From NCBI RefSeq assembly GCF_014055025.1, contig NZ_CP059571.1, positions 1,488,001 through 1,552,000 of the forward strand: a stretch of 64,000 nt of DNA, read 5' to 3'. Positions 18,552 through 59,664 of the stretch are shown here, piece after piece. Position 1 is the stretch's first letter; every line of letters begins with the position of its first letter. Both the position numbers and the translations under genes were made by a program. The notes below the pieces were generated by a model. The model was not told the DNA's origin. It worked only from the letters and a program-made list of their open reading frames with translations, and did not search any database. Source of the DNA: Neisseria bacilliformis. GTDB taxonomy: Bacteria > Pseudomonadota > Gammaproteobacteria > Burkholderiales > Neisseriaceae.

Positions 18552-20150
18552 CTACCCCGCTTCGTGCTGCCGCACGAGGGCGCGGACGATGTGGCGGTTG
18601 GGGTGCAGGGCCTCGCGCAGGCGGCGGGAGAAGGGTTGCGGCAGGCCGAGGATTTCGGCGGCGGTTTGTTCGGCGCACCAGGGGGCGGTGGCCAGCCCGC
18701 GGCTGCCGTGGGCGGCGTTGACCCGGGCATTGGGCAGCCACGGGCAGGGTGCGTCGAGCGGGTAGTTTTTGTCGTGGGCGAGTTTGGCGTACACCTGTTT
18801 CATCGCGGCGTAGTCGGCCAGGCGGCCGACTACGGGCAGGTGGTCGGGGCTGTCGCAGCGCACGGCGGCGTGGCCTGCGGCGGCGGGGGCGGCGGACAGG
18901 TCGGCAGCAAGCTGCGGGTGCAGGCGTTCGAGTTCGCGGCGGTTGTGTTCTGCGTCGGCCTCGCGCCAGTCGCTGCCCGCGTCGTGCGGGATGAAACTCG
19001 CGCCGTAGCAGTGCCGCCCCTGCCATGCGGGGCTGATGTAGGCGGCGGCGGAGAGGGCGGTTTTCAGACGGCCTGAATACGGCGTGGCGGCGGAGAGGTC
19101 GGTTTGGCCGCGTATGAGCTGCCACGGCAGGGCGGCCAGGGCGGGGATGTGCGGGCTTTGCGCGCCGGTACAGTACACGATGTGCTGCGCGGACAGGGTG
19201 TGCGCGGGCGTTTGCAGCCGCCACGCGCCGCCTGACCATTGCGCCGACAGCAGCGGCGTGTGTTCGCGCAACGTGATGTTCGGGTGCGAGAGCAGGGCGC
19301 GTACCAGCGCGGGCGGGTGCAGCCACGCGCCCTGCGGCCAGTAGAGGCCGTCTGAAAACATGTCGATGCCGGCGATTGCGCCCGCTTCTTTTGCGCTTAC
19401 GCCGCGATAGAGGTGGGCGTGGTGCTTTTGCGTGGCGAGTGCGGCGTTGCGGCGGGTTTCGGCGGGGTTGTGGTTCAGGTGCAGCAGCCCCGAAGGCTGC
19501 CAGTTTTCCCGCTCGGGCAGGAGTTCGTCGAGCAGGCGGCGGCTGTGGCCGTAGCCGCCGAGCAGCAGTTCGGTCTGCTCCGTGTCGTGCGCGGAGATTT
19601 TGGCATACAGCAGACCCTGCCGGTTGCCGCTGGCCGCCTGCGCCGCTCTGCCCGCTTCGAGCACGGTAACGCGCACGCCGCGCGAGGCCAGCGCGTAGGC
19701 CGTGGCCGCGCCCGCGATGCCTGCGCCGACCACGGCCACGTGTTCCGGCGGGAGAACGGGTTTTTCAGACGGCCTGTACCACGGCTTGTACGGCGCGGCG
19801 GCGGTTTGCGGCACGGGTTCGGTCTGCCAGTGCAGGCCGTCCCCGCCTAAAACATGCGGGGATGACGTTTCTGAAAAATGCTCGTGCAGCCGCGCGGCGC
19901 ACACGGGCGGCATCAGCCACAGCTCGCAATCGGGCAGCAGGCCGCGCAGGATGTTGGGCGCGGCAAACTGCACGCAGGCCGAGTGCTGCGGCCAGAGGGC
20001 GAGAAACCGCCGCTCGGTTTCGCACGGCGCGGCGGAGGCGGCAAATTCGGGAAAGCGCAAATCGGGCAGGCAGACAATCAGGCGGCGGTATTTCCGTGCC
20101 GCACGGACGAGTTCGGCCAAGGGCGGCGGGGCGTTCCAGGCGGCGGTCAT
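18552..20150 (-). CDS. mnmC: FAD-dependent tRNA cmnm5(s2)U34 oxidoreductase, MnmC C-domain type
   Basis: 532 residues starting MTAAWNAPPP behind AAGGA. After ~150 unusual residues comes a DAO-fold domain with the FAD motif VAVVGAGIAGAATAYALASR (starting near residue 135) and ASGNRQGLLYAK, typical of the MnmC oxidoreductase domain that removes the carboxymethyl group during U34 wobble modification. No SAM-methyltransferase domain is visible, so only the oxidase half is present. DUS are read in all three frames (FSDGL, RPSEK, GRLKT). A 30-bp palindrome is inserted within one DUS and adds ten residues (ETSSPHVLGG) between FS and DGLHW. Confidence 0.82.
   Translation of the reverse strand: MTAAWNAPPPLAELVRAARKYRRLIVCLPDLRFPEFAASAAPCETERRFLALWPQHSACVQFAAPNILRGLLPDCELWLMPPVCAARLHEHFSETSSPHVLGGDGLHWQTEPVPQTAAAPYKPWYRPSEKPVLPPEHVAVVGAGIAGAATAYALASRGVRVTVLEAGRAAQAASGNRQGLLYAKISAHDTEQTELLLGGYGHSRRLLDELLPERENWQPSGLLHLNHNPAETRRNAALATQKHHAHLYRGVSAKEAGAIAGIDMFSDGLYWPQGAWLHPPALVRALLSHPNITLREHTPLLSAQWSGGAWRLQTPAHTLSAQHIVYCTGAQSPHIPALAALPWQLIRGQTDLSAATPYSGRLKTALSAAAYISPAWQGRHCYGASFIPHDAGSDWREADAEHNRRELERLHPQLAADLSAAPAAAGHAAVRCDSPDHLPVVGRLADYAAMKQVYAKLAHDKNYPLDAPCPWLPNARVNAAHGSRGLATAPWCAEQTAAEILGLPQPFSRRLREALHPNRHIVRALVRQHEAG
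19841..19870. repeat. palindrome inserted inside a DUS within mnmC
   Basis: GGCCGT (19835-19840) and CTGAAAA (from 19871) are the two halves of one uptake sequence, separated by 30 bp that begin CCCCGCC and end CGGGGATGACGTTT. Removing the 30 bp recreates GGCCGTCTGAAAA and keeps the reading frame. Sister copies of 25 bp occur at 43246, 50968, 52786, 59413 and 59626. Confidence 0.85.
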
Positions 20151-20263
20151 GGCGGGTTCCTTTCGGGCGGGGGATTGGGCGTTTCCGGGCTGTTTTGAGC
20201 GTGCGGGGCGTGCGGCGCAAAAACCGCGTGCGTGGCTGTGGCGCACACCCTGCCTTAATGGTA
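20151..20263. repeat. mnmC upstream REP-like unit
   Basis: An inverted REP-like palindrome lies at about 20224-20256 (CGCGTGCGTGGC followed by GCGCACACCCTGCC), ahead of a DUS hairpin. No gene. Confidence 0.5.
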
Positions 20264-20297
20264 GAGGCCGTCTGAAAGCGTGGTTTCAGACGGCCTC
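20264..20297. terminator. DUS hairpin after the 186-residue exported protein gene
   Basis: GAGGCCGTCTGAAA and its inverse, 10 bp past the minus-strand stop at 20308. Confidence 0.65.
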
Positions 20298-20307
20298 AAA
20301 CGCCGGT

Positions 20308-20868
20308 TTATTTTTTGTCCGCGCAGGAATTTGCCGCGCCCGCTTTGGCGCGGGTGTCGCACACGCTGACGGCTTTCAGGTAGTAGGAGGCGCGGTCGGC
20401 TTCGGCTTCGTTCGGCTCGTGGCGGAAGGCGTATTGGGCGATGTAGAGCGCGTCGCGGCCTTCGATGGCTTTGAAGAAGGTGAATTCGGGCGTGCCGCTT
20501 TGCGGGTTTTTCTGGCAGCCCGCCACCCAAGCGACCACGGGGTAGCCGTTGAGGGTGGGCGGCACTTCGGTTTTCTGTACGCTTCCGTCGCGGCAGACAC
20601 TCAGCCAGCCTTGTCCGATAAAGCGGAAAGCGTCTTCGGCACTGGGGCGTTTTTTGCCGTTCATCACTTGGATGGTGATCATTTCCTGCCATTTTTCAAC
20701 GCTTTGGCCTTTGGGCACGTATTCGGTCATGTCCACGCCGTTGCTGTTGTCGCGGAAGGCGGCGGCGAATCCGGCGGGCAGCTTGGGCGTGCGCAGTTTT
20801 TCGCCCGCCGCGAAGGCGAGGCAGGGCAGCAGCAGGGCGGCGGCGAGGAGGGTTTTGGCGGTGTTCAC
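20308..20868 (-). CDS. exported protein of unknown function
   Basis: 186 residues with a clear signal peptide (MNTAKTLLAAALLLPCLAFA). The mature part contains GVDMTEYVPKGQSVEKWQEM, four cysteines (SVCRDG, AGCQKN, SVCDTR, NSCADKK) and DALYIAQYAFRHEP. I do not recognise a family. Periplasmic location and two disulfides are plausible. It is the next gene after accA on the same strand, but a DUS hairpin and 70 bp separate them, so it is probably a separate unit. A RBS GGACATCCC-type start is weak but the signal peptide supports ATG 20868. Confidence 0.75.
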   Translation of the reverse strand: MNTAKTLLAAALLLPCLAFAAGEKLRTPKLPAGFAAAFRDNSNGVDMTEYVPKGQSVEKWQEMITIQVMNGKKRPSAEDAFRFIGQGWLSVCRDGSVQKTEVPPTLNGYPVVAWVAGCQKNPQSGTPEFTFFKAIEGRDALYIAQYAFRHEPNEAEADRASYYLKAVSVCDTRAKAGAANSCADKK

Positions 20869-20901
20869 GGGATGTCCTTTTTTCAGGCGGGAAATAGAAA
20901 A

Positions 20902-20933
20902 AGGCCGTCTGAAAATCTGTTTTCAGACGGCCT
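20902..20933. terminator. DUS hairpin after accA
   Basis: AGGCCGTCTGAAAA-TCTG-TTTTCAGACGGCCT, a nearly perfect palindrome 7 bp past the accA stop (minus strand). Confidence 0.75.
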
Positions 20934-20940
20934 CTGCGGG

Positions 20941-21900
20941 TTATTTTTCAACAAACTGGCCGTAGGCCATGATGCGGCCGAAGCGGCGGTCGAGCAGGTC
21001 GGAGAGCGGCATGTCCTGCGCGGCGCGCAGTTGTTCGGACAGGACTTCGCGCACGCGCTCCATCAGTTCCTCATAATTGCGGTGCGCCCCGCCCAGCGGC
21101 TCTTCGATCACTTTGTCGATCAGGCCGAGTTTGGCGAGGCGGTCGGCAGTGATGCCCAGCGCGGCGGCGGCATCGGCGGCCTTTTCGGCGGTTTTCCACA
21201 GAATCGAGGCGCAGCCTTCGGGGGAAATCACGGAATAGGTGGAATATTGCAGCATGTTCACATAATCGCCCACGGCAATGGCCAGCGCGCCGCCGGAGCC
21301 GCCTTCGCCGATGATGGTGCAGATGACGGGCACTTTGAGTTTGGTGAGCTCGTACAGATTGCGGCCGATGGCTTCGGACTGGTTGCGCTCTTCCGCGCCG
21401 ATGCCCGGATACGCGCCCGGGGTGTCCACGAAGGTGAGCACGGGCAGGCGGAATTTTTCCGCCAGATGCATCAGGCGCAGGGCTTTGCGGTAGCCTTCGG
21501 GGCGGGGCATGCCGAAATTGCGGCGGATTTTTTCTTTGGTGTCGCGGCCTTTCTGGTGGCCGATGACGACGACGCTCTGGCCGTTGAACCGCGCCAGCCC
21601 GCCGACGATGGCGTGGTCGTCGGCGAAATGGCGGTCGCCGTGCAGCTCTTGGAAATCGGTGCACAGCGCGGCGATGTAGTCCAGCGTGTAGGGACGCTGC
21701 GGGTGGCGCGACACCTGCGACACCTGCGCGGGGGTGAGTTTGGCGTAGATGGACTTGGCCAGCTCGCTGCTTTTTTTCTGCAAACGTTCGATTTCGTCGC
21801 TGATGTCCACGGCAGATTCGCCTTGGACGAAACGCAACTCTTCGATTTTTTTGGTCAGCTCGGCCAGCGGCTGCTCGAAGTCAAGAAAAACGGGCTTCAT
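20941..21900 (-). CDS. accA: acetyl-CoA carboxylase carboxyltransferase, alpha subunit
   Basis: 319 residues, the standard AccA length. Begins [20 protein letters not shown] and contains [40 protein letters not shown] and [20 protein letters not shown], all hallmark AccA segments. With AccD it transfers the carboxyl group from biotin-BCCP to acetyl-CoA, the first committed step of fatty acid synthesis. accD is not in the window, as usual when accA and accD are unlinked. A minus-strand TATCAT box with a GC-rich discriminator lies 41 nt before the ATG. Confidence 0.96.
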
Positions 21901-21940
21901 ATGGGAACGGTCTCACATTGGAAGGAAATTTTCGCGCGGC

Positions 21941-21946
21941 ATGATA
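21941..21946 (-). promoter_or_regulatory. -10 box of accA
   Basis: Minus-strand TATCAT followed by GCCGCGCG, 41 nt upstream of the accA ATG. Confidence 0.4.
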
Positions 21947-22067
21947 CGCGTTTTGCCGCCGTTTGGCGAAGGGAGCGCGCAATCTACGCGATAAACGGCA
22001 GGCGGGCAAGTGCCGTGTTAAACTGCGCGCTTTTTCAGACGGCCACAAACAAAAAAGGAGGCGCGGC

Positions 22068-22466
22068 ATGGAGCGGCAGCAGGCAGACGCGATGCGTTTG
22101 GACAAATGGCTATGGGCGGCGCGGTTTTTCAAAACCCGCGCCCTCGCGCAAAAGCATATCGGGCTGGGGCGCGTGCTGGTGAACGGCGCGAAGGTGAAAA
22201 ACAGCAAAAACATCGCATCGGGCGACGTTATCCGCCTCACGCTCAACTCGCTGCCCTACGAAATCACCGTGCTCGCGCTCAACCACCAACGCCGCCCCGC
22301 CCCCGAAGCGCGGCTGCTCTACCGCGAAGACGAAAAAGTGGCGGCCGAGCGCGAAGCGCAAAAGCTGCTCGACCAGGCATCCCGCGCCAGCGCGGCCTAC
22401 CCCGACGGGCGGCCGACCAAACGCGACCGCCGCCAGATCGAGAAGCTCAAACGCGGGGAATTCTAA
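22068..22466 (+). CDS. hslR: S4-domain RNA-binding heat-shock protein (Hsp15-like)
   Basis: 132 residues behind AAAAAAGGAGG. The S4 domain is at the N-terminus: MRLDKWLWAARFFKTRALAQ then IGLGRVLVNGAKVKNSKNI. The C-terminus is basic and alpha-helical (GRPTKRDRRQIEKLKRGEF). Hsp15 binds 50S subunits carrying nascent chains after failed translation and recycles them. Longer in-frame sequence upstream reads through a DUS and is rejected as coding. Two direct AG-DUS follow the stop. Confidence 0.88.
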   Translation: MERQQADAMRLDKWLWAARFFKTRALAQKHIGLGRVLVNGAKVKNSKNIASGDVIRLTLNSLPYEITVLALNHQRRPAPEARLLYREDEKVAAEREAQKLLDQASRASAAYPDGRPTKRDRRQIEKLKRGEF

Positions 22467-22640
22467 ACGCAGAGGCCGTCTGAAAAGCCTTAGAGGCCGT
22501 CTGAAAACACAGTTTCGGCACAGCCCAAACCCGTTTGCGGCCGCATTTGCAGAAACGTCATCCCGCGTGGGCGGGGACGACACTGCCACACGGTATCACC
22601 ACACAAACCCACAGATTTGATTGAAAGAAAGGAAACCATC
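22467..22640. other. intergenic region with DUS and a degenerate DUS-splitting palindrome
   Basis: Direct DUS at about 22480 and 22494. At 22553-22576 a degenerate form of the GATGACGTTT palindrome (AAACGTCATCCCGC then GGGCGGGG) follows CAG, resembling the DUS-split elements elsewhere. AAAGGAAAC supplies the next gene's RBS. Confidence 0.45.
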
Positions 22641-23486
22641 ATGCGCTGGCAAGGCAGAGAACGCAGCAGCAACATCGAAGACCGACGCGGGCAAAGCAGC
22701 GGCGGCGGGGGAGGAGGCGGCATGGGCATCGTCGGCCTCATCGTCGTACTCGTCGGCGCGTATTACGGCGTGGACTTGTCCGGCATCGTCGGCGGCACGC
22801 CGCAGCTGGGCACAAGCACCGCGCGGCAGACCACGCTCAGCAGCAAGGAAGAAGCCCAGCTTGAAGAATTGTCCGCCGTGGTGCTGGCCGACACCGAAAA
22901 AACCTGGCAGGAATACTTCGCCCGCCAAAACGCCCGCTACACCCCCACCACGCTCGTGCTCTACACCGGCGGCACGCAAACCGCCTGCGGCACAGGGCAG
23001 GCGGCGATGGGACCCTTCTACTGCCCGGCCGACAAAAAGGTTTACCTCGATCTCTCGTTCTACGAAGAAATGCGCAGCAAACTGGGCGCGGCGGGCGACA
23101 CCGCCTTCGGCTACGTCATCGCCCACGAAGTCGGCCACCACGTGCAAAACCTGCTCGGCATCCTGCCGCAGGTGCACCAGATGCAGCAGCAGGCGAACAA
23201 AACCGAGGCCAACCGCCTCTCAGTGAAACTCGAGCTGCAAGCCGACTGCTTCGCCGGCGTGTGGGCGAAATACGCGCAGCGGCAGGATTTGCTCGAAGCG
23301 GGCGACATCGAAGAAGCGGTGAAGGCCGCCGAAGCCGTCGGCGACGACACCCTGCAAAAACGCAGCCGCGGCTACGCCGTGCCCGATAGCTTCACCCACG
23401 GCACGTCCGAACAGCGCATGTACTGGCTCAAACGCGGCCTGCAAAGCGGCGACATCAAACAGTGCGACACCTTCGCCGCCGAGTAA
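22641..23486 (+). CDS. ypfJ: YpfJ-family neutral zinc metallopeptidase, membrane anchored
   Basis: 281 residues. MRWQGRERSSNIEDRRGQ opens, then a Gly run, one membrane segment (MGIVGLIVVLVGAYYGVDL, ~28-46) and a periplasmic domain with YCPADKKVYLDLSFYEEM and the zinc motif HEVGHH (residues 162-167), followed by LELQADCFAGVWA, whose Asp/Glu residues complete the site. It matches the YpfJ/DUF of putative neutral zinc metallopeptidases; substrates are unknown. ATG 22641 is chosen for its RBS and family-like start MRW. An unusual poly-Gly hinge precedes the membrane segment. Confidence 0.9.
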   Translation: MRWQGRERSSNIEDRRGQSSGGGGGGGMGIVGLIVVLVGAYYGVDLSGIVGGTPQLGTSTARQTTLSSKEEAQLEELSAVVLADTEKTWQEYFARQNARYTPTTLVLYTGGTQTACGTGQAAMGPFYCPADKKVYLDLSFYEEMRSKLGAAGDTAFGYVIAHEVGHHVQNLLGILPQVHQMQQQANKTEANRLSVKLELQADCFAGVWAKYAQRQDLLEAGDIEEAVKAAEAVGDDTLQKRSRGYAVPDSFTHGTSEQRMYWLKRGLQSGDIKQCDTFAAE

Positions 23487-23796
23487 ATAATAGACAGGCC
23501 GTCTGAACACACCGCTCCGGCGCGGCCTCTTATTTAGCGGCAACAACCGCGTGCGTCACCTCGGGGCGATAACGCTTTCAGTAGGTCGGGCATCCATGCC
23601 CGACATTTTTCAAATCTGCCGGTGTTCGTCGGGCATAAATGCCCGACCTGCATTTGTGGCGCAAGCCACGCACGCGGTTTGCGTTTGCCGCAGCCGTTTG
23701 CCCGATAAAGAAACGAAAGGCCGTCTGAAAAACCGTCTGAAAAACCGTTTTACCGGTTTTCAGACTGCCTCAATGCAGGGCGATAGATATAGCCAC
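23487..23796. repeat. REP-like pairs and DUS
   Basis: Holds a GTAGGTCGGGCATCCATGCC palindrome with inverted partner (23581-23652), flanking units with CGCGTGCG and CCACGCACGCGG cores, and DUS at about 23499, 23727 and 23742 with an inverted DUS near 23757 that can form a terminator for the minus-strand gene at 23797. Confidence 0.6.
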
Positions 23797-24030
23797 CTAC
23801 TGCGCCGTTTTCCGCTTGCAGCCGTTTTCGCCGCGCTCCTGGCACTCTATCGTTTTGCGCACCCGCCCGTCCCAGTCCCTGGGCTTGTCGAAACCCTCGG
23901 TCGGCGACGGAATCTGCGCCGCCTTCTCCTTAATCCTGTCCCCGTAAAACTCCCAAACGGCAAACGCCGCCAGCAGCAGCGCGGCCAGTTTTACCCAGCG
24001 TAAAATTTTCTGTTTTTGTGCGAAATCCAT
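23797..24030 (-). CDS. small membrane-anchored hypothetical protein
   Basis: 77 residues starting MDFAQKQKILRWVKLAALLL. One membrane segment (about 10-28) is followed by a charged periplasmic-side tail with PSPTEGFDKPRDWDGRVRKT and two cysteines (IECQERGENGCKR). No known domain. Its frame is free of repeat-derived residues, the gene is bracketed by a hairpin at its 3' side, and it is divergent from zwf. The RBS is weak (GGGAAT). Moderate confidence that it is expressed. Confidence 0.6.
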   Translation of the reverse strand: MDFAQKQKILRWVKLAALLLAAFAVWEFYGDRIKEKAAQIPSPTEGFDKPRDWDGRVRKTIECQERGENGCKRKTAQ

Positions 24031-24185
24031 TTTTTATTCCCGAAAATGCTGAAAACCAAGCGAGATGCGGCGGATTTTAACGTTTTGGCAGAATTTGTGA
24101 AGCCCCAACCGCTGCGGCGCATAGACAAGCCCCCGCCGCCGCGTGTAGCATGGCCGCGCCTTTCATCCGACCCGTCCCCAAACCC

Positions 24186-25598
24186 ATGCAGTCCGAACAA
24201 AAAAACTTCGACCTTATCCTCTTCGGCGCAACCGGCGATCTGTCCATGCGCAAACTCCTGCCCGCCCTCTACGACGCCCACGCCGCCGGCCGGCTGCATC
24301 CGAAGGGGCGCATCCTCGGCGCAAGCCGCAGCCGCCTGACCCGCGGACAATTCCTCGCCAAAGCCGCAGCAGAAGCCCGCCCCCACACCGCCGCCACACC
24401 CGCCGAATGGGACGCCTTCTGCCAAAGAATCGACTACCTGCCGCTGGACATCGGCAACCCGCAGGACTTCGCCGCCCTCGCCGCCGAAATACGCGGCAAA
24501 GCCGACAGCGAAAGCATCGTCTTCTACCTTTCCGCCGCCCCCCAATTCTTCGTCCCCGCCTGCCGCAGCCTCGCCGCACACGGCCTCAACGGCGCAAACA
24601 CCCGCGTCGTCCTCGAAAAACCGCTGGGCACCGACCTCGAATCCTGCCGCCTCATCAACGACGGCGTGGCGCAGTATTTCCAAGAACGCCAAATCCTGCG
24701 CATCGACCACTACCTCGGCAAAAACGGCCTGCACAACCTCCTCGCCCTGCGTTTCGGCAACAGCCTCTTCGAGCCGCTGTGGAACAATCGCCACATCCGC
24801 TCCGTGCAAATCACCCTTGCCGAAACCCTCGGCGTCGAAGCGCGCGGCGAGTTCTACAACGGCATCGGCGCGCTGCGCGACATGGTGCAGAACCACATCA
24901 TGCAGATACTCTGCCTCACCGCCATGGAACGCCCGCAAAGCCTCGACGCCGACGCCCTGCGCGACGCCAAGCTGCAACTCATCCGCGACCTCCTCCCCCT
25001 CGACCCCGCCGCCGACGCCGTCTTCGGCCAATACACCTTTTCAGACGGCCTCAAAGGCTACACCCAGGAACACAAAGTCCCGCCCGAGAGCCGCACCGAA
25101 ACCTACGCCGCCCTGCGCGCCTTCATCGGCAACCCCCGCTGGGCGGGCGTCCCCTTCTACCTGCGCACCGGCAAACGCCTGTCCCGCCGCGCCGCCGAAA
25201 TCGTCATCGCCTTCAAACCCCCGGCCGACACCCTCTTCCCCGCCGCCCTGCCCAACCGCCTCGTCATCAGCCTGCAAGCCGACGACGAAACCCTGCACCT
25301 GCGACTCAACGTCAAAACCCCCGACGGCGCGCAGAACACCGCCCCCGCCGAGCTGGGCTTCGACACCCGCCCCGGCCGCCGCCCCTCCGCCTACGAAACC
25401 CTGCTGCTCGAAGCCCTCGCCGGCCGCGCCGCCCTGTTCAACCGCCGCGACGAACTCGAAGCCGCCTGGGCCTGGCTCGCCCCCGCCCTCGAAGCCCTGC
25501 GGCAAAACCCGCCCCACCCCTACCCCGCCGGCAGCACCGGCCCCGCCGCCGCAAACAGTCTCCCCGCAGCAGGCGACGCATGGTTTGAAGGCATCTGA
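24186..25598 (+). CDS. zwf: glucose-6-phosphate 1-dehydrogenase
   Basis: 470 residues. The NAD(P) motif ILFGATGDLSMRKLLPALYD lies at residues 11-30, the substrate/catalytic motif RIDHYLGKN (family RIDHYLGKE; here Asn replaces Glu) near 175, and EKPLGTDLESC and KVPPESRTETYAAL follow. It catalyses the first oxidative pentose-phosphate/Entner-Doudoroff step, giving NADPH. Start MQSEQKNFDL at 24186 matches the family N-terminus; ATG 24150 lies in a TAGCAT -10-like element. A DUS is read in frame at FSDGLKG. A hairpin terminator follows. Neighbouring edd/pgl genes are not present. Confidence 0.92.
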   Translation: MQSEQKNFDLILFGATGDLSMRKLLPALYDAHAAGRLHPKGRILGASRSRLTRGQFLAKAAAEARPHTAATPAEWDAFCQRIDYLPLDIGNPQDFAALAAEIRGKADSESIVFYLSAAPQFFVPACRSLAAHGLNGANTRVVLEKPLGTDLESCRLINDGVAQYFQERQILRIDHYLGKNGLHNLLALRFGNSLFEPLWNNRHIRSVQITLAETLGVEARGEFYNGIGALRDMVQNHIMQILCLTAMERPQSLDADALRDAKLQLIRDLLPLDPAADAVFGQYTFSDGLKGYTQEHKVPPESRTETYAALRAFIGNPRWAGVPFYLRTGKRLSRRAAEIVIAFKPPADTLFPAALPNRLVISLQADDETLHLRLNVKTPDGAQNTAPAELGFDTRPGRRPSAYETLLLEALAGRAALFNRRDELEAAWAWLAPALEALRQNPPHPYPAGSTGPAAANSLPAAGDAWFEGI

Positions 25599-42797: not shown

Positions 42798-43317
42798 TGA
42801 CCTCTTTATCACCTAAGGCAGGGTGTGTGGCGCAGCCACGCACGCGGTCTTTGTTGCACAGCCATCCCGCAACCACCCCTTCGGCAACAAAAGGCCGTCT
42901 GAAAACCCACAATCCAGTTTTCAGACGGCCTTTTGCCGTTAGGATAGAGTGCGCGGCACAGTTGCGGGATTTGCGGACTGCGGGCATTTGTTGCAGAGCC
43001 GGTATCCGGTAGGTCGGGCATTCATGCCCGACCTGTTTTAGTTGCCGACGGTCAGTCGGGCATGAATGCCCGACCTACTACGCTGCATTTTCAGACGGCC
43101 TCTTACCGCTAAGGCAGGGTGTGTGGCTTGCCACGCACGCGGTTGCTGTGCAGCAGGCAGGTTGGGTTGCAAACCCAACATCTCCGATTACCCGACCATA
43201 TTGGGTCAAGACCCAACCTGCGCTCACCCAAACATCGGAGGCCGTCCCCGCCTGCTCGGGGATGACGTTTCTGAAAATGCCCAAAACCCGTTTTCAGACG
43301 GCCTCTGCGTTTTCCTT
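42798..43317. repeat. REP-like cluster, DUS hairpins and a DUS-splitting palindrome
   Basis: GGGTGTGTGGCGCAGCCACG unit at 42815-42846; a DUS hairpin at 42889-42934 that can terminate kdsB; GTAGGTCGGGCATTCATGCC inverted pair at 43010-43078; GTGTGTGGCTTGCCACGCAC unit near 43114-43144; palindromes GGGTTGCAAACCC and TTGGGTCAAGACCCAA (43164-43218). At 43246-43270 a 25-bp palindrome interrupts a DUS (GGCCGT before, CTGAAAA after). No gene. Confidence 0.75.
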
Positions 43318-50816: not shown

Positions 50817-51110
50817 TCCATCCAGTCCATGCCGAACCCAAGGTAGGGTGTGTCGCCCCGAGGCGACGCACGCGTTCTCTGCTGCTTCAACCAATCCGCA
50901 CTTTCCCTGCAACCCAAACCGCGTGCGTGGCTTGCGCCACACACCCTACCTAAACGGCAGAGGCCGTCTCCGCCTTCGCGGGGATGACGTTTCTGAAAAC
51001 CGGTAAAACGGGTTTGGCTGCGCCGAAGCTACACTTTCAGACGGCCTTTTTCGATGTCGAATGATACGTAGGGTGTGTGGCGCAGCCACGCACGCGGTTT
51101 GTACAGTTTA
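50817..51110. repeat. REP-like pair plus DUS-splitting palindrome
   Basis: GTAG unit with GTCGCCCCGAGGCGAC core at 50841-50875, inverted partner at 50918-50950, a 25-bp palindrome splitting a DUS at 50968-50992, an extended-DUS module near 51012-51040 and a GTAG unit with core TGTGGCGCAGCCACGC at 51066-51103. No gene. Confidence 0.7.
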
Positions 51111-51612: not shown

Positions 51613-52712
51613 GACGCGCCGCCGTCGCCGTAGAGCGGGTTGTGGCCGGGTAGGCGCAGGGCTTGCGGGTAGGCGGGCAGCTCGTCGTTTTCGCCGATGG
51701 GCTCGTGCAGCAGGCGGATGTTTTCCACGCGGCATTCGGCCAGAAGGTCGAGGAAGTTCTGCTGGACGGTTTCGATGTCGTCCATCGGCGAGAGCGGCCA
51801 GGTGAAGGTTTGCGGCTGTACGTCGAACTGGCTTTCGGTGGCGTTGAAGCCGAAAACGAGTCTGCCGCCTTCCTGCGCGGCCATCACCACGCCGACGCGT
51901 GGGCTCTGCATGCGGATGGCGCGGATGGCGTTGGCGGCGAACACGTCCATCGCCATGCGCAGGCGCATGTGGCCGGCGGCGGTGAGGGCGGCGGGGGGGA
52001 TGTCGGCCGAGAGCGGGTTGGCAAACAGGGTTACGCCGGAGGTTTTCAGGGCTTCGATCCACACCTGCATCAGCGGCAGGGCGGCGTTTTGCAGGTTTTT
52101 GCCCAACGCGCCCGCCAGTTCGCAGCCGCCGTAGCCGAGGGCGAAGGCCGCGCTCACCGACTGGCCTTCGGCCAGCGGCAGTTTTTCGGTTTGCGGCAGC
52201 TCGGCGGCAAATGCGGCGGCGGCTTCTGGGCTTTGCTTGGCTTTAAACCATTGTCCGGCGTTGATTTCCGACATCTGTCCGGCGGTGATGAGGCGCGGCA
52301 GCCAGGTGGCGCGGGTGAGCGCGCGGGTGTGCGGGTAGTTGGCAAGGCAGGTGCAAAGCTCGGACACGGGCGTATCGGCAGGCAGGGCGGCTTCTTTTTT
52401 GCAGCCGGCCACCAGAACCACGGGCAGGGCGAACCATTGCGCTTCATCGTCGGTTTTGGCCTGCAACACGTCGTTCACCGCCGCCATGATTTGCCGGTAG
52501 GCATCCGCGCTGGGGGTCATGCTCAGGGCGACGGAGAGGTTGAGGTAGAAGTTTTGCGACAACATGCCGTGTATCTGCGCCCGCAGGGCTTCGGCGGCGA
52601 TTTTGCCCGCCGCGCCGCCGCCTGCGGCCTGCACGGCGTGCATCAGCAGCTCGCGCTTCACCGGTTCGGCGGGATAGGGGCGGGTGTCGGGGAGGTAGCG
52701 GTGTTCGGACAT
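51609..52712 (-). CDS. conserved protein of unknown function upstream of the phosphatase gene
   Basis: 367 residues starting MSEHRYLPDTRPYPAEPVKR. Soluble, no signal peptide; contains VQAAGGGAAGKIAAEALRAQ, WFALPVVLVAGCKKEAALPA, MRLRMAMDVFAANAIRAIRM and GRLVFGFNATESQFDVQPQ. I do not recognise a domain. The codon use matches neighbours and the gene is coupled to a tyrosine phosphatase, so a shared pathway is possible. A minus-strand TATAAT-like box (52757-52762) lies 45 nt upstream. Confidence 0.82.
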   Translation of the reverse strand: MSEHRYLPDTRPYPAEPVKRELLMHAVQAAGGGAAGKIAAEALRAQIHGMLSQNFYLNLSVALSMTPSADAYRQIMAAVNDVLQAKTDDEAQWFALPVVLVAGCKKEAALPADTPVSELCTCLANYPHTRALTRATWLPRLITAGQMSEINAGQWFKAKQSPEAAAAFAAELPQTEKLPLAEGQSVSAAFALGYGGCELAGALGKNLQNAALPLMQVWIEALKTSGVTLFANPLSADIPPAALTAAGHMRLRMAMDVFAANAIRAIRMQSPRVGVVMAAQEGGRLVFGFNATESQFDVQPQTFTWPLSPMDDIETVQQNFLDLLAECRVENIRLLHEPIGENDELPAYPQALRLPGHNPLYGDGGAS

Positions 52713-53196
52713 GGCGGGCTTTCTTGTGCTGGTTCGGTGCGGAAAAAATGCCGCGGATTATAGCAAAATTTGTGTTGCAGGCCGTACCCGCCCGCACGGG
52801 GATGGCGTTTCCGAAAGCCGTGTTTTTCAGACGGCCTCTGCGGCATGTGTGAGGCCGTCTGAAAAACGCAAAAACGGGTTTTGGCTGCGCCGAAGCGGCA
52901 CTTTCAGACGGCCTCCCTATTATGCCCGCCCCGCAAATTCCGCAACCGCGTACGTGGCTGCGCCGCACACCCTGCCTTGGCGGCAGAGGCCGTCTGAAAC
53001 ATGAAATCCGCTTCGCAAGCTGAAATGTCAACACACCCTACGTCAGGTTCGGCATCGGCGGATGCGGCAGGCCGTCTGAAAACGCGGCTTCGGCGCAGGC
53101 GCGGGCGGATTTTGTTTTTTCAGACGGCCTCAAAACGGCGCGGCGGGTATTCTGCGGTAGAATGCGCGGCTTTCGTCCAACCGCAAAGGGTTTCCC
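52713..53196. repeat. promoters, DUS and repeats before pheA
   Basis: Minus-strand TATAAT (52757-52762) for the upstream gene; a 25-bp palindrome at 52786-52810 within a degenerate DUS (GGCCGT then CCGAAAG); DUS at about 52826, 52852 and 53120; an extended-DUS module (52878-52910); an inverted REP-like unit (52944-52972); and plus-strand TAGAAT (53158-53163) with GC-rich discriminator, 33 nt before pheA. No gene. Confidence 0.6.
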
Positions 53197-54279
53197 ATGA
53201 ACGCCGAACAGGAACGCCGGCTTCTGCCGCACCGCGACGCCATCGACCGCATCGATGCCGCCGTGTTGAAACTTTTAAACGAACGCGCCGTCCACGCCCG
53301 CGCCATCGGCCAGCTCAAAGGCACAGGCGTGGTGTACCGCCCCGAGCGCGAGGCGCAGGTGTTGCGGCGGATTAAGGAAATGAACGAAGGCCCCCTGTCC
53401 GACGAGGGCATGGCACGGCTGTTTCGCGAAGTGATGAGCGAATGCTTGGCCGTGGAGCGGCCGCTCACCATCGCCTACCTCGGCCCAGAAGGCACGTTTA
53501 CCCAGCAGGCGGCGGTCAAGCATTTCGGCCATGCCGCCGACACCGCCGCCTGCGCCAGCGTGGACGAATGCATGCGCCGCGTGGAAGCGGATCAGGCCGA
53601 CTACGCCGTCGTCCCCGTGGAAAACTCCACCGAAGGCTCGGTCGGCCGCACCCTTGATCTGCTGGTGTCCTCGCCGCTCAAAGCCTGCGGCGAAGTGGTG
53701 CTGCGCATCCATCACCAGCTTTTGCGCCGCCGCGAAGGTTTGGACGGCACGCAGAAAGTGTACGCCCACGCGCAGGCGCTGGCGCAGTGCCACGACTGGC
53801 TGAACAAAAACCTGCCCGCAGGCATCGAACGCATCCCCGTGTCCAGCAACGCCGAAGCCGCCCGTCTCGCCTCGGAAGACGACACCGCGCTGGCCATAGC
53901 CGGCACGGCCGCCGCCGAACGCTACGCCCTCACCGCCCTCGCGCGCAACATCGAAGACGAGCCGGACAACACCACCCGTTTCCTCGTGCTGGGCAAGCAG
54001 GACACCGCCCCGAGCGGGCGCGACAAAACCTCGCTGCTGTTCTCCATCCCCAACCGTGCCGGCGCGGCCGCCGCCCTGCTCGCCCCCTTCGGCGCGGCGG
54101 GCATTTCGATGACCAAATTTGAAAGCCGCCCCAGCAAAACCGGCTTGTGGGAATACGTGTTCTTCATCGACATCGAAGGCCACCGCAGCGACACGCCCGT
54201 GCGCGCCCTACTCGAACGCTTCGCCGCCGACAATGTTTTCGTCAAAACCATCGGCTCGTATCCCGCCGCCGTTTTGTGA
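53197..54279 (+). CDS. pheA: bifunctional chorismate mutase/prephenate dehydratase
   Basis: 360 residues. AroQ-type mutase domain (HRDAIDRIDAAVLKLLNERA, 11-100), prephenate dehydratase domain (YLGPEGTFTQQAAVKHFGHA, PVENSTEGSVGRTLDLLVSS) and a C-terminal ACT domain with KTSLLFSIPNRAGA and FESRPSKTGLWEY for phenylalanine feedback. It makes phenylpyruvate from chorismate. Start is supported by position relative to TAGAAT. An aro gene cluster is not adjacent. Confidence 0.95.
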   Translation: MNAEQERRLLPHRDAIDRIDAAVLKLLNERAVHARAIGQLKGTGVVYRPEREAQVLRRIKEMNEGPLSDEGMARLFREVMSECLAVERPLTIAYLGPEGTFTQQAAVKHFGHAADTAACASVDECMRRVEADQADYAVVPVENSTEGSVGRTLDLLVSSPLKACGEVVLRIHHQLLRRREGLDGTQKVYAHAQALAQCHDWLNKNLPAGIERIPVSSNAEAARLASEDDTALAIAGTAAAERYALTALARNIEDEPDNTTRFLVLGKQDTAPSGRDKTSLLFSIPNRAGAAAALLAPFGAAGISMTKFESRPSKTGLWEYVFFIDIEGHRSDTPVRALLERFAADNVFVKTIGSYPAAVL

Positions 54280-54367
54280 AACCGTTTGAAACCCCGCACG
54301 CGCCGCAAGCGTGTCCCAACTTCGCTGCAACATTGTTTTCAAACGGTCTCCAAGCCGATACAACACC

Positions 54368-54985
54368 ATGAACGAAATGAACAACATCGCCGTCTATTGC
54401 GGCTCGAATTACGGACAAAACCCCGCCTACCTGCACGCCGCCCGCGAGCTGGGCGCGCTCATCGCCCGACGCGGCGCGCGCCTGATATACGGTGGCGGCC
54501 GCATCGGCCTGATGGGCGCGGCGGCCGATGCCGTGCTGGCACACGGCGGCAAAGTCAGCGGCGTCATCCCCGCCTTCCTCGCCGAAAAAGAAATGGCGCA
54601 CGGCGGCCTCACCGAACTCGTCCAAACCGCCGACATGGCCGCACGCAAAAGCAAAATGATCGCCCTCGCCGATGCCTTTGTCGCCCTCGCCGGCGGCATC
54701 GGCACCTTTGAAGAACTGTTTGAAGTCCTCTCCCTCTCCCAGCTGCGGCAGCACCAAAAACCCGTCGGCCTGCTCAACACCGCCGGCTTCTACACCCCCC
54801 TGCTCGCCCTGTTGCGACACACCGCCGCCGAAGGCTTCATGCCCGCAGCCAACCTCGGCCTGCTGTGCGTGGCCGACACCCCCGCCGCGCTGTTGGAAAA
54901 AATGGCCGCGTGGCAGCCGCAAGAGGCGCAAAACGCGCAAAAATGGACGCAGCCCGCATGGCTGGCGCAAGAGACGCAAACATGA
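54368..54985 (+). CDS. LOG-family nucleotide ribohydrolase (TIGR00730)
   Basis: 205 residues starting MNEMNNIAVYCGSNYGQNPA. LOG-family motifs: YGGGRIGLMGAAADAVLAHG near residue 45 and LAGGIGTFEELFEVLSLSQL near 110. The family motif PGGxGTxxE has Ala instead of Pro here. LOG proteins cleave N6-modified nucleoside monophosphates or other nucleotides; the substrate is uncertain. The C-terminus is Gln/Ala-rich. It overlaps the next gene by ATGA. ATG 54368 preferred to upstream in-frame ATG at 54311, which has no RBS. Confidence 0.88.
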   Translation: MNEMNNIAVYCGSNYGQNPAYLHAARELGALIARRGARLIYGGGRIGLMGAAADAVLAHGGKVSGVIPAFLAEKEMAHGGLTELVQTADMAARKSKMIALADAFVALAGGIGTFEELFEVLSLSQLRQHQKPVGLLNTAGFYTPLLALLRHTAAEGFMPAANLGLLCVADTPAALLEKMAAWQPQEAQNAQKWTQPAWLAQETQT

Positions 54986-55782
54986 ACGCCCCCGCATCCT
55001 GCGCCATCCTCGGCCTCGGCTACCTCGGCCGCCCCCTTGCCGAAACCCTGTGGCAGCACGGCAGCCGCGTCGCCGCGTGGAAAAAAACACTCACCTCCGA
55101 CGACATCGCCCTGCCGATCGAGCTCGCCACCGGCGACATCGCCGCGCAGAACGGTTTTCAGACGGCCTTTGCCCGCTGGCAGGGCATAGAAACCTGGGTC
55201 TGCCTGCTGCCGCCCTCCGCCTTCGCCCACACGCCCGAAGCCTACCCCGCCGCCGTCCGCACCTGGGCGCAGGCCGCCGCACACTACGGCGCAAACCACC
55301 TCATCTTCACATCCAGCATCAGCGTCTTCGGCCGCCACATGGGCGAGTGCCGCGAACACACCCCGCCCGAGCCCGACCCGCAAAACACCGTCGCCCGCCG
55401 CCTCATCGAAGCCGAAGCCGCCGTATTCGCCGCCGCCGTCCCCCACACCGACATCCTCCGCCTCGGCGGCCTCTACTGCGCCGAACGCCACCCCCTGTTT
55501 TCCATCCTTGCCAAACAAAGCCGCCCCCACGCCCGCGAACCGGCCAACATGCTCCACCGCAGCCGCGCCGCAGCCGCCCTGTTTCAGACGGCCTGCACCC
55601 CCGGCGGACACCGCTTGCGCCACCTCGTCGAAACCCCGCACCCGAGCAAACAACAGTTCTACACCGAACAGGCCGCTCGCCTCGGCCTACCCCCGCCCGC
55701 GTTCGCATCAGGCGCAGCCAGCCGCCGCACCGTCGCAACCCTGTATCCCGAATTTTCTGATATATTGGCCGCAAACCCATAA
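54982..55782 (+). CDS. NAD-dependent epimerase/dehydratase-like protein (YeeZ-type)
   Basis: 266 residues starting MNAPASCAILGLGYLGRPLA, a Rossmann motif GLGYLG, then IFTSSISVFGRHMGECREHT, GLYCAERHPLFSILAKQSR and a C-terminal region. It resembles YeeZ-like NAD(P) binding proteins rather than classic sugar epimerases (the YxxxK motif is not evident). Translationally coupled to the LOG gene. DUS are read in frame as GFQTAFARW and LFQTACTPG. Function not assigned. Confidence 0.78.
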   Translation: MNAPASCAILGLGYLGRPLAETLWQHGSRVAAWKKTLTSDDIALPIELATGDIAAQNGFQTAFARWQGIETWVCLLPPSAFAHTPEAYPAAVRTWAQAAAHYGANHLIFTSSISVFGRHMGECREHTPPEPDPQNTVARRLIEAEAAVFAAAVPHTDILRLGGLYCAERHPLFSILAKQSRPHAREPANMLHRSRAAAALFQTACTPGGHRLRHLVETPHPSKQQFYTEQAARLGLPPPAFASGAASRRTVATLYPEFSDILAANP

Positions 55783-55933
55783 CACATAACAACACAGGCC
55801 GTCTGAAACCCCGCCTCGACAAAGTTAAAACCCGGCACAACAGCCCCGCCATACCAACAAACACCCGCGCCGCCCGCCGACACCGTTTTCACTTCGTCCA
55901 AGCCGCGTTTTCAGACGGCCTCCGAAAGCCACC

Positions 55934-56506
55934 ATGCCCGCCACCGCCCTGCTCAACAGCCTCATCCGCCTCAGCCCCGAAACACAACGCGCCCTCGCCG
56001 GCTACAACGGCATCGTCCTCAGCCTGCACACCGCCGGCCTCACCCTCAAAGCCCGCATCAACGCCGACGGCCTGTTTCACGCTACCACCCGCCCCGCCGA
56101 CACCGCCATCACCCTGCACGAAGGCGCATGGCCGAAACTCCTCGCCGGACACCCCCCCGCAATCGCCGACCTCGCCATCAGCGGCGACACCGCCCTCGGC
56201 CTCAACCTCCTCGCCGCCCTCGCCCCCCTCCCCCGCCGCCTCGCCGAACGCCTCACTCCCGCCCTGCGCCAAACCGCCACTACCGCCGCCGCCAAACTGC
56301 ACACCCTGACCCACCGCCCCGCCGCCACCGCCGAGCCCGTTTCCCGCACAGATTTCATGCAACTGGCGGAACAAACCGCCGCCCTCGCCGCGCAAACCGC
56401 CGCCCTGCAAACCGCCCTCGCCGAACTGCGCACCGAAAACGCCGCCCTGCGCTGCGACCTCGAATACCTCCACGCCCGCCTGGACAAATTCGACCGCGAC
56501 TGGTAA
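55934..56506 (+). CDS. ubiJ: UbiJ-like SCP2-domain ubiquinone accessory protein
   Basis: 190 residues starting MPATALLNSLIRLSPETQRA. SCP2-like N-terminal part with HEGAWPKLLAGHPPAIADLA and ISGDTALGLNLLAALAPL, then a C-terminal coiled coil (LAEQTAALAAQTAALQTALA, LRTENAALRCDLEYLHARLD). UbiJ binds lipid intermediates and organises the aerobic ubiquinone complex. Usually between ubiE and ubiB, not so here, hence moderate confidence. An inverted DUS with AGCCACC is 10 nt upstream; RBS weak. Confidence 0.65.
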   Translation: MPATALLNSLIRLSPETQRALAGYNGIVLSLHTAGLTLKARINADGLFHATTRPADTAITLHEGAWPKLLAGHPPAIADLAISGDTALGLNLLAALAPLPRRLAERLTPALRQTATTAAAKLHTLTHRPAATAEPVSRTDFMQLAEQTAALAAQTAALQTALAELRTENAALRCDLEYLHARLDKFDRDW

Positions 56507-56984
56507 CACACCGGCGTCCCGCTTATCAGGTAGGGTGTGCGGCGCAAGCCGCGCACGCGGACTCTGTTTTACAAGCGGCTGTCCGCACCCGCCACACAAA
56601 AGGCCGTCTGAAAGCTGCGCAATGCGGTTTTCAGACGGCCTCTGCCGTATAACGAACCCGCCTGCCTCCCAAATCCGAAACCGCGTGTGTGGCTTGCGCC
56701 ACACAGCCTACCCAACGCCGGAGGCCGTCTGAAAATCGTAGGTCGGATTCTTGAATCCGACGCTTCCCCGCAGGGGAATTCCGTTGTACGGGATGCCGGA
56801 TACAAGTATCCGACCTGCGGCTTTTACGGTTTATCAGGTAGGGCGTGTCGCCCTAAGGCGACGCACGCGGTTTCAGGATTACGGGGAAAACGCGGATGCG
56901 TTGCACGGTAGAGAAGGCGTGCGTCGTCTCGGGGCGACACACCCTACTGAACTGCTGCCCGTATCCGGCACATAAAAGGCCGTC
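56507..56984. repeat. REP-like cluster downstream of the UbiJ-like gene
   Basis: GTAG unit with core TGCGGCGCAAGCCGCGC at 56530-56562, DUS hairpin 56600-56641, inverted REP-like unit 56681-56712, GTAGGTCGGATTCTTGAATC unit with inverted partner (56737-56818), GTAG unit 56838-56872 with core GTCGCCCTAAGGCGAC, and its inverse 56910-56946. No gene. Confidence 0.7.
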
Positions 56985-57018
56985 TGAAAACCCGTATTGC
57001 GGTTTTCAGACGGCCTTT
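56985..57018. terminator. DUS hairpin after maeB
   Basis: AAAGGCCGTCTGAAAACCCG with inverse, 28 bp past the minus-strand maeB stop. Confidence 0.72.
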
Positions 57019-57046
57019 GCTTACGGCGCGGGGACGCTTGGCGCGT

Positions 57047-59326
57047 TTACTGGCGTTGGGCGTCCACGGCGGCGAGGGCGATCATGTTGACGATGCGGCG
57101 CACGGTGGAAATCGGCGTAACAATCTGCACGGGTTTGTTCAGTCCCATCAGGATGGGGCCGACGGTGATGCCGTTGGTGGCGTTGACGCGCAGCAGGTTG
57201 TAGCTGATGTTGGCGGCTTCGACGTTGGGCATCACCAGCAGGTTGGCCGCGCCCGAAAGCGTGGTTTCGGGGAAGATGCTGCGGCGCATTTCGTCGTCCA
57301 GCGCCACGTCGGCCTGCATTTCGCCGTCGATTTCCAACTCGGGATCAAGCTCGCGGATCATTTCCAAAGCCTGCTGCATTTTCGTGGCATCCGCATCGCG
57401 GCGCGAGCCGTAGTTGGAGTTGGACACCAGCGCGACTTTGGGTTTGATGCCGAAGCGTTTCATTTCGGCGGCGCACATCAGGGTGCCTTTGGCGAGCTGT
57501 TCGGCGGTGGGGTTTTCGTTGATGTAGGTGTCGGCGATGAAGAAGTTGCCTTTGTTGGAAATCAAGGCGTTCATGGCGAAGGCTTCTTTTTCGGGGTTGT
57601 TGTAGCCGATGACTTCCTCCATGACGGCGAAGTGGTCGTGGAAACGCCCCATGGTGCCGCAGACAAGGCCGTCGGCGTGGCCGAGTTTGACCATCAGCGC
57701 GCCGACGAGGGTGCTGTTGGCTTTAAGGCGGCGGCGCGCCATTTCTTCGGTTACGCCTTGGCGTTTGCGCAGGCTGTAATACGCTTTCCAGCTTTCTTCG
57801 TAGTGGGGGTTGTTTTTGATGTCGATGAGTTCGTAGTCTTTGCCGGCCTGGATGGTGAGCCCCTGGGCGGCGATGCGCTCTTCGATGAGTTTGCCGTCGC
57901 CGACGAGGATGGGGAAGGCGAGTTTGTGGCTGGCGACGTGTTGGGCGGCATGCAGCACGCGTTCGTCTTCGCCTTCGGTGAGGACGATGCGTTTGATTTC
58001 TTTGCGCGCCTGGTTGAAGACGGGGCGCATGAAGAGGCTGGTTTTGTAGACGAACTCGGTGAGTTTTTCGGCGTAGGCTTTGAGGTCGGCTATCGGGCGG
58101 GTGGCCACGCCGGAATCCATGGCGGCTTTGGCGACGGCGGGGGCGATGCGGGCGATGAGGCGGGGGTCGAAGGGTTTGGGGATGAGGTATTCGGGGCCGA
58201 AGGTGAGTTCGGCGTCGCCGTATGCGCCGGCCACTTCCGCGCTGGATTCGGCCATGGCCAGATCGGCGATGGCGCGCACGCAGGCGAGTTTCATTTCTTC
58301 GTTGATGGTGGTTGCGCCCACATCAAGCGCGCCACGGAAGATGAAGGGGAAGCAGAGGACGTTGTTGACTTGGTTGGGGAAGTCGGAGCGGCCGGTGCCG
58401 ATGATGACGTCGGGGCGGGCGGCTTTGGCTTCGGGCGGCCAGATTTCGGGCTGGGGGTTGGCCAGGGCGAGGACGACGGGGTTGGGGTTCATGGTTTTGA
58501 GCATGTCGGTGCCCAATACGTTGGCACTGGAAAGGCCGAGGAAGATGTCTTTGCCGGATACGGCGTCGCCGAGCACGCGCTGGCCGTTGTCGGCAATGGC
58601 GTAGCGCACTTTGCTCTCGTCCATGCGTTCGCGGTCTTCGCGGGTTTGGTAGATGACGCCTTTGGAGTCGCAGACGGTGATGTTTTCGCGTTTCATGCCC
58701 AGGGCGACGAGCAGGTCGAGGCAGGCGATGGCGGCCGCGCCCGCGCCGGAGCAGACGAGCGATACTTGGCCGATGTCTTTTTTCACCACGCGCAGGGCGT
58801 TGAGGACGGCGGCGGCGGTAATGATGGCGGTGCCGTGTTGGTCGTCGTGGAACACGGGGATGTTGCAGCGTTCGCGCAGTTTTTTCTCGATGTGGAAGCA
58901 CTCGGGGGCTTTGATGTCTTCGAGGTTGATGCCGCCGAAGGTGGGTTCGAGCGCGGCGATGATTTCCACCAGTTTGTCGGGGTCGGTTTCGTTCACTTCG
59001 ATGTCGAACACGTCGATGTTGGCGAATTTTTTAAACAGTACGCCCTTGCCTTCCATCACGGGTTTGCCCGCCAGTGCGCCGATGTTGCCCAGGCCGAGCA
59101 CGGCGGTGCCGTTGGAAATCACGGCCACGAGGTTGCCTTTGGCGGTGTATTTGTAGGCGTTGAGTGGGTCGGCATGGATTTCCATGCAGGGCGCGGCCAC
59201 GCCGGGCGAGTAGGCCAGCGACAGGTCGTACTGCGTGCCCAGGGGCTTGGTGGGGGCGACTTGGATTTTGCCCGGGTTGGGGTATTCGTGAAAGCGCAAC
59301 GCGGCTTCTTTGATCATATCGTCCAT
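57047..59326 (-). CDS. maeB: NADP-dependent malic enzyme with C-terminal phosphotransacetylase-like domain
   Basis: 759 residues behind CAGGAG. Malic domain with [52 protein letters not shown] and [20 protein letters not shown], then a C-terminal PTA-like domain from ~430 ([53 protein letters not shown]). It converts malate to pyruvate with NADPH formation; the PTA-like domain is regulatory. ATG 59326 matches MaeB starts; upstream frame contains DUS-derived residues and a palindrome. Confidence 0.95.
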
Positions 59327-59664
59327 GCTGTTTTCTCCTGAAAGGTCGGTAGGGAACAGGCCGTCTGAAAAAGCGCGTCCGGCTTGCGGCTGCGCCGAAA
59401 CTGCGTTTTCAGAAACGTCATTCCCGCGAAGGCGGGCACGGCCTGTGAAGATTTGCAAAGGCTGGATTCTAACACGCGGCGGCGCACTCGGGCGGGAAAT
59501 TACAGGGGATTACGGCGTGTCGCCCATCCCGCCGCGCGGCGGCGCGGCAGCGGAGAGGCCGTCTGAAAAAGCGGCTTCGGCGCGGCCAAAATCCGGTTTT
59601 GGCCGCGCCGAAGCTGCGTTTTCAGAAACGTCATCCCCGCGAAGGCGGGCACGGCCTCTTTACA
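59327..59664. repeat. two DUS-splitting palindromes and an inverted extended-DUS pair
   Basis: 25-bp palindromes at 59413-59437 and 59626-59650 (AAACGTCAT then CGCGAAGGCGGGC), each inside an inverted DUS (TTTTCAG before, ACGGCCT after). Between them, the GGCTTCGGCGCGGCCAAAA module and its inverse form a large palindrome (59572-59610). Holds the maeB promoter; no gene. Confidence 0.75.

Follow-up and report, generated by a model that had tools for sequence, protein, structure and literature searches.

Hairpin elements that split DNA uptake sequences at a fixed point in Neisseria bacilliformis and its relatives

We analysed a 64,000-nucleotide stretch of Neisseria bacilliformis DNA (the window; positions 1488001-1552000 of a 2.49-Mb genome), in which an earlier note had described short palindromes lying inside the DNA uptake sequence (DUS), the genus's mark of self DNA. 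We consider it highly probable that these palindromes are mobile hairpins, small and non-autonomous, which enter DUS at one fixed step and in one orientation. Comparison with related genomes shows, at the level of sequence, that one family (family 1) has repeatedly inserted in pre-existing DUS at a fixed site and in several lengths, and that a second family uses the same step. New here are a frame-keeping 30-bp class in genes, the second family at the same step, and the host dialect of the DUS halves.

Split uptake sequences and their empty sites

The window holds 135 perfect copies of GCCGTCTGAA, against 0.17 expected; AG stands before 125 of them and A after 132. All six blocks that the earlier note had placed inside a DUS are present, each separating GGCCGT from CTGAA (CCGAA at 52811) by 25 bp, or by 30 bp at 19841. 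The 30-bp copy (plus strand; GGCCGT 19835-19840, insert 19841-19870, CTGAA 19871-19875) lies in frame in a minus-strand MnmC-like open reading frame (ORF) of 577 aa (18555..20285), whose residues 182-572 match MnmC_Cterm (TIGR03197) above cut-off and in which the insert adds ten codons, turning FSDGL into FSETSSPHVLGGDGL. The 25-bp copies on the plus strand are at 43240..43275 (insert 43246-43270), 50962..50997 (insert 50968-50992) and 52780..52815 (insert 52786-52810, in a degenerate DUS whose right half is the CCGAA just mentioned); those on the minus strand are at 59408..59443 (insert 59413-59437) and 59621..59656 (insert 59626-59650). An intact DUS, the partner of an inverted pair, accompanies the copies at 43246 (43293-43302), 52786 (52826-52835), 59413 (59360-59369) and 59626 (59558-59567).

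Targeted insertion, as the earlier note proposed it, leads one to expect precise empty sites in orthologous loci, and an uninterrupted DUS was indeed found at the same point both between and within genes. The comparison genome, G020, ranks as the nearest relative in that a 17.5-kb stretch of the window has its best match there; the 770 kb of it that were used contain 1092 intact DUS and lack the right-end motif GATGACGTTTCTGAA altogether. We aligned 53 queries (48 loci, some overlapping, and five window sites) to it and compared locus by locus the 16 that had nearby anchors. At 11 of these 16 intergenic loci an uninterrupted DUS fills the slot in G020. Six are anchored on both flanks (window 59413, 59626 and 52786; genome 246610, 947141 and 1240198) and five on a single flank (window 43246; genome 247414, 472656, 936968 and 988671); the slot of 43246 is filled by an intact inverted DUS pair. 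The other five comparisons are unclear (window 50968; genome 145329, 471260, 1029044 and 1455055). The clearest intergenic site is 59413, where G020 reads TTCAGACGGCCTGCGAAGATTTGCAAA and N. bacilliformis has the split form followed by CTGTGAAGATTTGCAAA.

Within genes, two 30-bp copies have base-exact empty sites in G020. In mnmC, N. bacilliformis encodes HFSETSSPHVLGGDGLHWQ and G020 encodes YFSDGLEWQ, where its DNA carries an uninterrupted DUS; in the other species whose fragment was compared, the DUS peptide is absent at that point. In the SDR gene at 1291921, the difference from G020 is exactly 30 bp. In polA the comparison gains a direction. Among 30 polA genes read, G017 and G042 carry a 30-bp family-1 insert, 14 have the intact TTCAGACGGCC, eight a one-base variant (TTCAGACGACC), four another form and two (G027 and G044) a different insert. 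This polarity speaks for insertion and against excision.

Classes, families and host dialect

A whole-genome search with GCCGTN{12,42}GRNGTTTCTGAA, which covers inserts up to 51 bp, returned 82 matches in N. bacilliformis and none for the reversed pattern that served as control. One match is a longer reading of its neighbour, leaving 81 elements: 57 of 25 bp, 17 of 44 bp, four of 30 bp, one of 24 bp, one of 27 bp, and a further 25-bp copy with the left half GGCCGC that was picked up via an upstream GCCGT; degenerate copies such as that at 52786 stand outside this count. A looser pattern, GGCCGTNVN{10,40}HNCTGAAA, which lacks the element's own letters and covers inserts up to about 44 bp, gave 94 matches against 8 in the control; an autonomous parent element longer than these limits would escape both patterns. 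Summed over the other 45 genomes of the genus it gave 556 against 440, and 11 of the 45 had at least twice the control with at least 12 matches (maximum 24). The strict family-1 pattern occurs in 3 of 83 genomes of the bacterial family: N. bacilliformis (70 matches), G042 (7) and G017 (1). A scan of species genomes with that of N. bacilliformis left out yielded 37 matching stretches, eight with a hairpin (one in Bergeriella denitrificans, seven in Neisseria sp. S5R_Sa_39) and 29 single matches without one; viral contigs gave no family-1 match with the hairpin pattern. A pattern for the 30-bp copies, allowing up to three mismatches, found 7 in N. bacilliformis, 16 in G042, 2 in G044 and a single copy in each of G017 and G029, with no match in the controls.

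The length classes differ in where they lie. A gene caller based on codon-position GC was applied to 46 N. bacilliformis copies, a part of the total (48 loci plus three). Five of the seven 30-bp copies are deep in ORFs, one is at an edge and one is intergenic. Intergenic positions hold 19 of the 24 copies of 25 bp and 11 of the 15 copies of 44 bp, and the remainder of these two classes sit at ORF edges or no more than about 130 nt from a predicted start. Deep positions therefore account for 5/7 of the 30-bp copies and 0/39 of the others (Fisher p 1.5e-5, with the boundary between deep and edge set after the calls had been seen); counting any inside call, the contrast is 5/7 against 5/39 (p 0.003). 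In G042, seven of 16 copies of 30 bp fall in identified genes (polA, pepN, cysJ, ligA, murE, cydD and a DUF2868 gene). The 30-bp, or 10-codon, class thus tends to lie in frame within genes, and the 25- and 44-bp classes do not. Since the class found deep in genes is the one that keeps the frame, frame-shifting insertions have presumably been lost. The lengths given in the earlier note (five of 25 bp, one of 30 bp) are correct for the window, and what it missed is the in-frame position of the 30-bp copy, the 44-bp class and the second family. A separate ORF of 1069 aa (genome 1590316-1593522, minus strand; L158:10317-13523) contains 30-bp DUS elements in frame at three places, with a fourth close to its start; it has no NCBIfam or Pfam match, and its relatives in G020 align at about 31-32% identity.

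The core was also searched for without any DUS letters. The pattern CCCGYN{4,30}GGGRATGACG gave 182 matches, 89 forward and 93 reverse. Thirty-one of the 89 forward cores end in GGGGATGACG (G-type), and all 31, read by hand, are flanked by both DUS halves with at most two mismatches and in one orientation. Reversed copies were absent from 270,571 bases of N. bacilliformis sequence, a biased and partly overlapping sample; the looser pattern above is by construction incapable of revealing them. In G-type cores the stem reads CCCCGC/GCGGGG and contains no more than one A/T pair; the loops measure 4, about 9 or about 23 nt. An unpaired CGTC tag stands at one end, as in CGTC-tagged repetitive extragenic palindromes (REPs); most family-1 copies have the right end ATGACG and some ATGGCG. 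The stem described for such REPs (8-9 bp, complementary A/T in the first and second positions, loop 4-5; PMC3733652) is not that of family 1. Nor do the family-1 copies listed, judged by reading, fit the strict dRS3 pattern ATTCCC-N8-GGGAAT (PMC2911385); its left AT is replaced by the DUS half GGCCGT. Ordinary dRS3 copies (GATTCCCGC..GCGGGAATGACG, as read) have the right end GGGAATGACG (A-type) and lie outside DUS, mostly with GAT on the left. A few DUS-splitting copies, for example 59413, carry this A-type end. The label "dRS3-derived" in the earlier note accordingly holds for the shared hairpin core and the CGTC tag, and fails on the strict dRS3 pattern and on the position of the ordinary dRS3 read, outside DUS. 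The DUS-splitting core is related to dRS3, which is a CGTC-tagged REP, without being ordinary dRS3.

Further repeats in the window belong beside these copies. The relatives that had been noted near 22553 and 63551 exist in decayed form: a degenerate one at 22548..22582 (minus strand; insert from 22553), with the right half TTTCTGCAA and no clear DUS as left half, and a truncated one, GACCGTCCCCGCCTGCGC, at 63549..63582 (plus strand), followed by an intact DUS at 63573. Two ordinary dRS3-like cores outside DUS, in opposite order, lie at 6059-6074 and 6136-6151 (within 6057..6151) and serve for comparison. At 63573-63610, and in right flanks elsewhere, there is a further repeat, GCGCAGCTTCGGCGCAGCC, often after a split or intact DUS. 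To the left of the 50968 copy and at many other loci is a GTAG-like intergenic repeat, GTAGGGTGTGTCGCC..GGCGACGCACGCG, that is frequent near DUS.

The second family was traced from the polA inserts of G027 and G044. Its members are short, variable hairpins that lead into AGGCTTCGCAYT and occupy the DUS step used by family 1. Counting copies between two intact DUS halves, 9 of 46 Neisseria genomes have it, at one to three matches each, with none in the control. The 12 distinct copies read comprise six of 21 bp, one of 24 bp and five of 23 bp. Six of the seven 21- and 24-bp copies are in identified genes, namely dinG and an hrpA-like gene (G017), priA (G022 and G032), yjeF (G029) and a holB-like gene (G050), the hrpA and holB matches being partial and below NCBIfam cut-offs. 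None of the five 23-bp copies is in an identified gene; they lie outside long coding-like frames (judged by frame, the family search having covered the 21- and 24-bp copies). Empty sites exist here too: yjeF is base-exact between G029 and G020, and priA of G022 and G032 faces a one-base DUS variant in G020; for dinG, comparison with G020 gave no clean result. Across both families, then, in-frame copies with insert-free orthologues are found in mnmC, the SDR gene, polA, yjeF and priA.

Family 2 also occurs in 16 stretches of a viral collection, 12 with 23-bp and four with 21-bp copies, several of them alike. These stretches (L291-L306) are Neisseria-like contigs, some with two copies close together. 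Two genes deserve separate mention. One DUS point of polA is used by both families, family 2 in G027 (L255) and G044 (L261) and family 1 in G017 and G042; and the hrpA-like gene of G017 (L281) has a second, degenerate family-2-like stretch, AGGCTACGCACTCTGAA, about 50 nt past the first and in the same frame.

The DUS halves mostly read in the dialect of the host. In genomes with mostly AG-DUS, the split DUS read AG in 42 of 44 cases in N. bacilliformis (loci L001-L048), 3 of 3 in G017, 5 of 6 in G042 and 1 of 1 each in G029, G032, G050 and G014 (where a single intact DUS was seen), samples that are small for each species. The 23-bp copies of G022 and G027, whose DUS are mostly AT, read AT, as do all 12 of the 23-bp rows from viral contigs, where intact DUS are mixed (17 AT and 7 AG in the eight stretches counted). 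The exceptions are CC in G012, one AG in G022 (in priA) and single cases in N. bacilliformis and G042. Since most split DUS agree with the host dialect at the bases flanking the split, the halves are host DUS.

Possible routes of insertion

The insertion step is GGCCGT^CTGAA, a point ambiguous by a base or two, and on the preferred reading the reaction is site- and orientation-specific. The element may travel in hairpin form, probably as a single strand. Joining it at that step would then fall to a strand-transfer enzyme that acts in trans and recognises single strands or nicks resembling DUS. The split DUS would probably be destroyed as an uptake signal, and where it was one arm of an inverted pair, the stem could still form around the new hairpin. 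Folding supports the hairpin form. Three split inverted-DUS pairs retain their stem, from which the insert branches off in a side hairpin (z -3.7, -2.0 and -10.1; the 59626 copy is the one at -10, and the 43246 copy is also among the three), and the one coding copy folded likewise forms a hairpin (z -2.8).

As to the enzyme, the best surviving alternative is that a host REP-associated tyrosine transposase (RAYT) moves the elements in trans, as proposed for GTAG REPs; we regard it as possible but unlikely. The genome has three Y1_Tnp genes, and the two tested score above cut-off as RAYTs. The structure of the elements is REP-like, TnpAREP cuts single strands at CT (PMC8266576), and the only CT of the DUS is the insertion step. 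An ordinary dRS3 also lies about 0.15-0.2 kb upstream (L125:1241) of a G015 relative, at 76% identity, of the RAYT at 1582399. However, the repeats that border the RAYTs at 1582399 and 2201981, and also the RAYT of G042, are GTAG-tagged, so these genes look like partners of another repeat. In a REPtron the RAYT is bordered by its own repeat; next to the RAYTs of L049, L050 and L127 stand GTAG repeats, and the DUS element nearest the L050 RAYT is about 0.7 kb away, beyond another ORF. Moreover, the carriers G014 and G029 have no Y1_Tnp match, and since GGCCGT is usually followed by A and not by C in family 2, a C^T cut is at odds with the left end of that family. The linked recombinase that the earlier note suggested looking for was not found, the RAYT genes looked at adjoining other repeats. 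In their own right, the RAYT genes of L050, L049 and L127, flanked by GTAG-tagged palindromes (GTAGGTTGGGTT.. and GTAGGTCGGGCAT..), are GTAG REPtrons in Neisseria.

Somewhat less probable still is that the whole split cassette, DUS halves included, moves and replaces or converts a DUS by short-homology recombination in transformation, with no need of a transposase. Neisseria readily recombines incoming single strands, the DUS halves offer 6-7 bp of homology per side, and the lack of a linked transposase fits. Against this, RecA would have to work with very short arms of 6-7 bp, the bases next to the split mostly match the host dialect, be it AG or AT, and the second family has only the site in common with the first. 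Random insertion with survival only in DUS, which sit at tolerant places such as terminators and protein loops, has very little to commend it. Several split DUS are arms of intergenic inverted pairs, and the insert allows the stem to re-form; but selection would not favour a single step and a single orientation, all 31 forward G-type cores are in DUS, and ordinary dRS3 of the same genome survive outside them. Finally, although DUS and dRS3 are both abundant, a chance meeting of independent copies is ruled out by the controls (0 against 82 matches and 8 against 94), an excess far above chance, as the earlier note's proposal required.

Insertion of mobile hairpins in DUS at one step is thus the reading we prefer, and several results weigh against it. 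No linked transposase was found and no movement was seen. Y1_Tnp does not track the carriers (9 of 11 carriers against 20 of 35 non-carriers, p 0.17), and orientation shows no replichore strand bias (p 0.89) of the kind that a lagging-strand mechanism might give. Five of the 16 intergenic comparisons are unclear and five of the 11 positive ones rest on a single flank. Among the matches listed, the reverse-strand G-type core at 71204 has no DUS and that at 105487 only a left half. Family 1 is abundant in one genome only, with 30-bp copies numbering 16 in G042 and one or two in three others, and nine of the 16 in G042 could be assigned to no identified gene; the 30-bp class is therefore not confined to genes.

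Taken further, insertion at one step might reflect a DUS-specific strand-cutting or strand-joining activity in Neisseria, possibly in the handling of taken-up single strands, which at least two hairpin families exploit to home to the DUS itself, frame-keeping length variants allowing them to persist in genes. We put this forward tentatively, as a possibility less likely than not. DUS-specific DNA cutting would become a testable idea. For CGTC-type repeats, said to "apparently lack a dedicated transposase" (PMC3733652), there would be a defined target, so that the enzyme could be sought with a simple substrate. If true, elements homing to DUS would silence uptake signals one after another, change terminators and lengthen core proteins by 7 or 10 residues. 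The genes hit include those for DNA polymerase I, DNA ligase, PriA, DinG and a HolB-like protein. DUS are enriched in genome maintenance genes, as cited in PMC1431543, and this may be why polA, ligA, priA, dinG and the holB-like gene are hit.

Relation to known repeats

Like the earlier note, which knew of no repeats that split DUS, we found no description of elements inserted in DUS in the literature searched, passages of PMC2397512, PMC3630211 and PMC2911385 included (subscription papers fall outside its coverage). The sole match for a disrupted DUS, in PMC1431543, concerns experimental control DNA. Di Nocera 2013 (PMC3733652) equates dRS3 with CGTC-1 REPs, for which it reports no dedicated transposase, and describes REPs inside other palindromes and in replication and repair genes; a search of the text available for "uptake" gave 0 hits.

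Family 1 resembles dRS3/CGTC-1 REPs (PMC3733652) in its GC hairpin core, its 4-nt loop (25-bp class), its CGTC tag (GACG) at one end and the lack of a dedicated transposase. In contrast to them, it has CCCC..GGGG in place of the outer A/T stem pairs and so fails ATTCCC-N8-GGGAAT, it lies in DUS and not in the AAGAT..GACGG contexts of the dRS3 read here, and it has additional 30- and 44-bp classes. REPs within target palindromes (GTAG-15 of A. variabilis, GTAG-23 of T. roseum and CGTC-1 of H. neapolitanus; PMC3733652) likewise place a REP-type hairpin within another repeat; the target here, however, is a functional uptake signal, which is also hit when single and in genes, and with empty sites in relatives.

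Correia/NEMIS elements (PMC3733652, PMC1431543) are, like ours, small non-autonomous repeats of Neisseria; unlike ours they are described as flanked by TA (PMC1431543), and DUS targeting is not mentioned in the parts of those papers available. Miniature inverted-repeat transposable elements are marked by a target-site duplication at terminal inverted repeats; the empty sites found here leave at most one or two bases of ambiguity (T or TC) and show no such duplication. IS200/IS605 elements and RAYT REPtrons (PMC8266576) share with the present elements a hairpin, a short fixed junction sequence and no clear target duplication; unlike them, the present elements have no gene of their own, the RAYTs looked at adjoin other repeats, and a single-strand step is putative. 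Rickettsia palindromic elements (PMC3733652) are likewise palindromic and in frame in unrelated proteins, but differ from the present elements in host, sequence and length and in the DUS-specific insertion of the latter.

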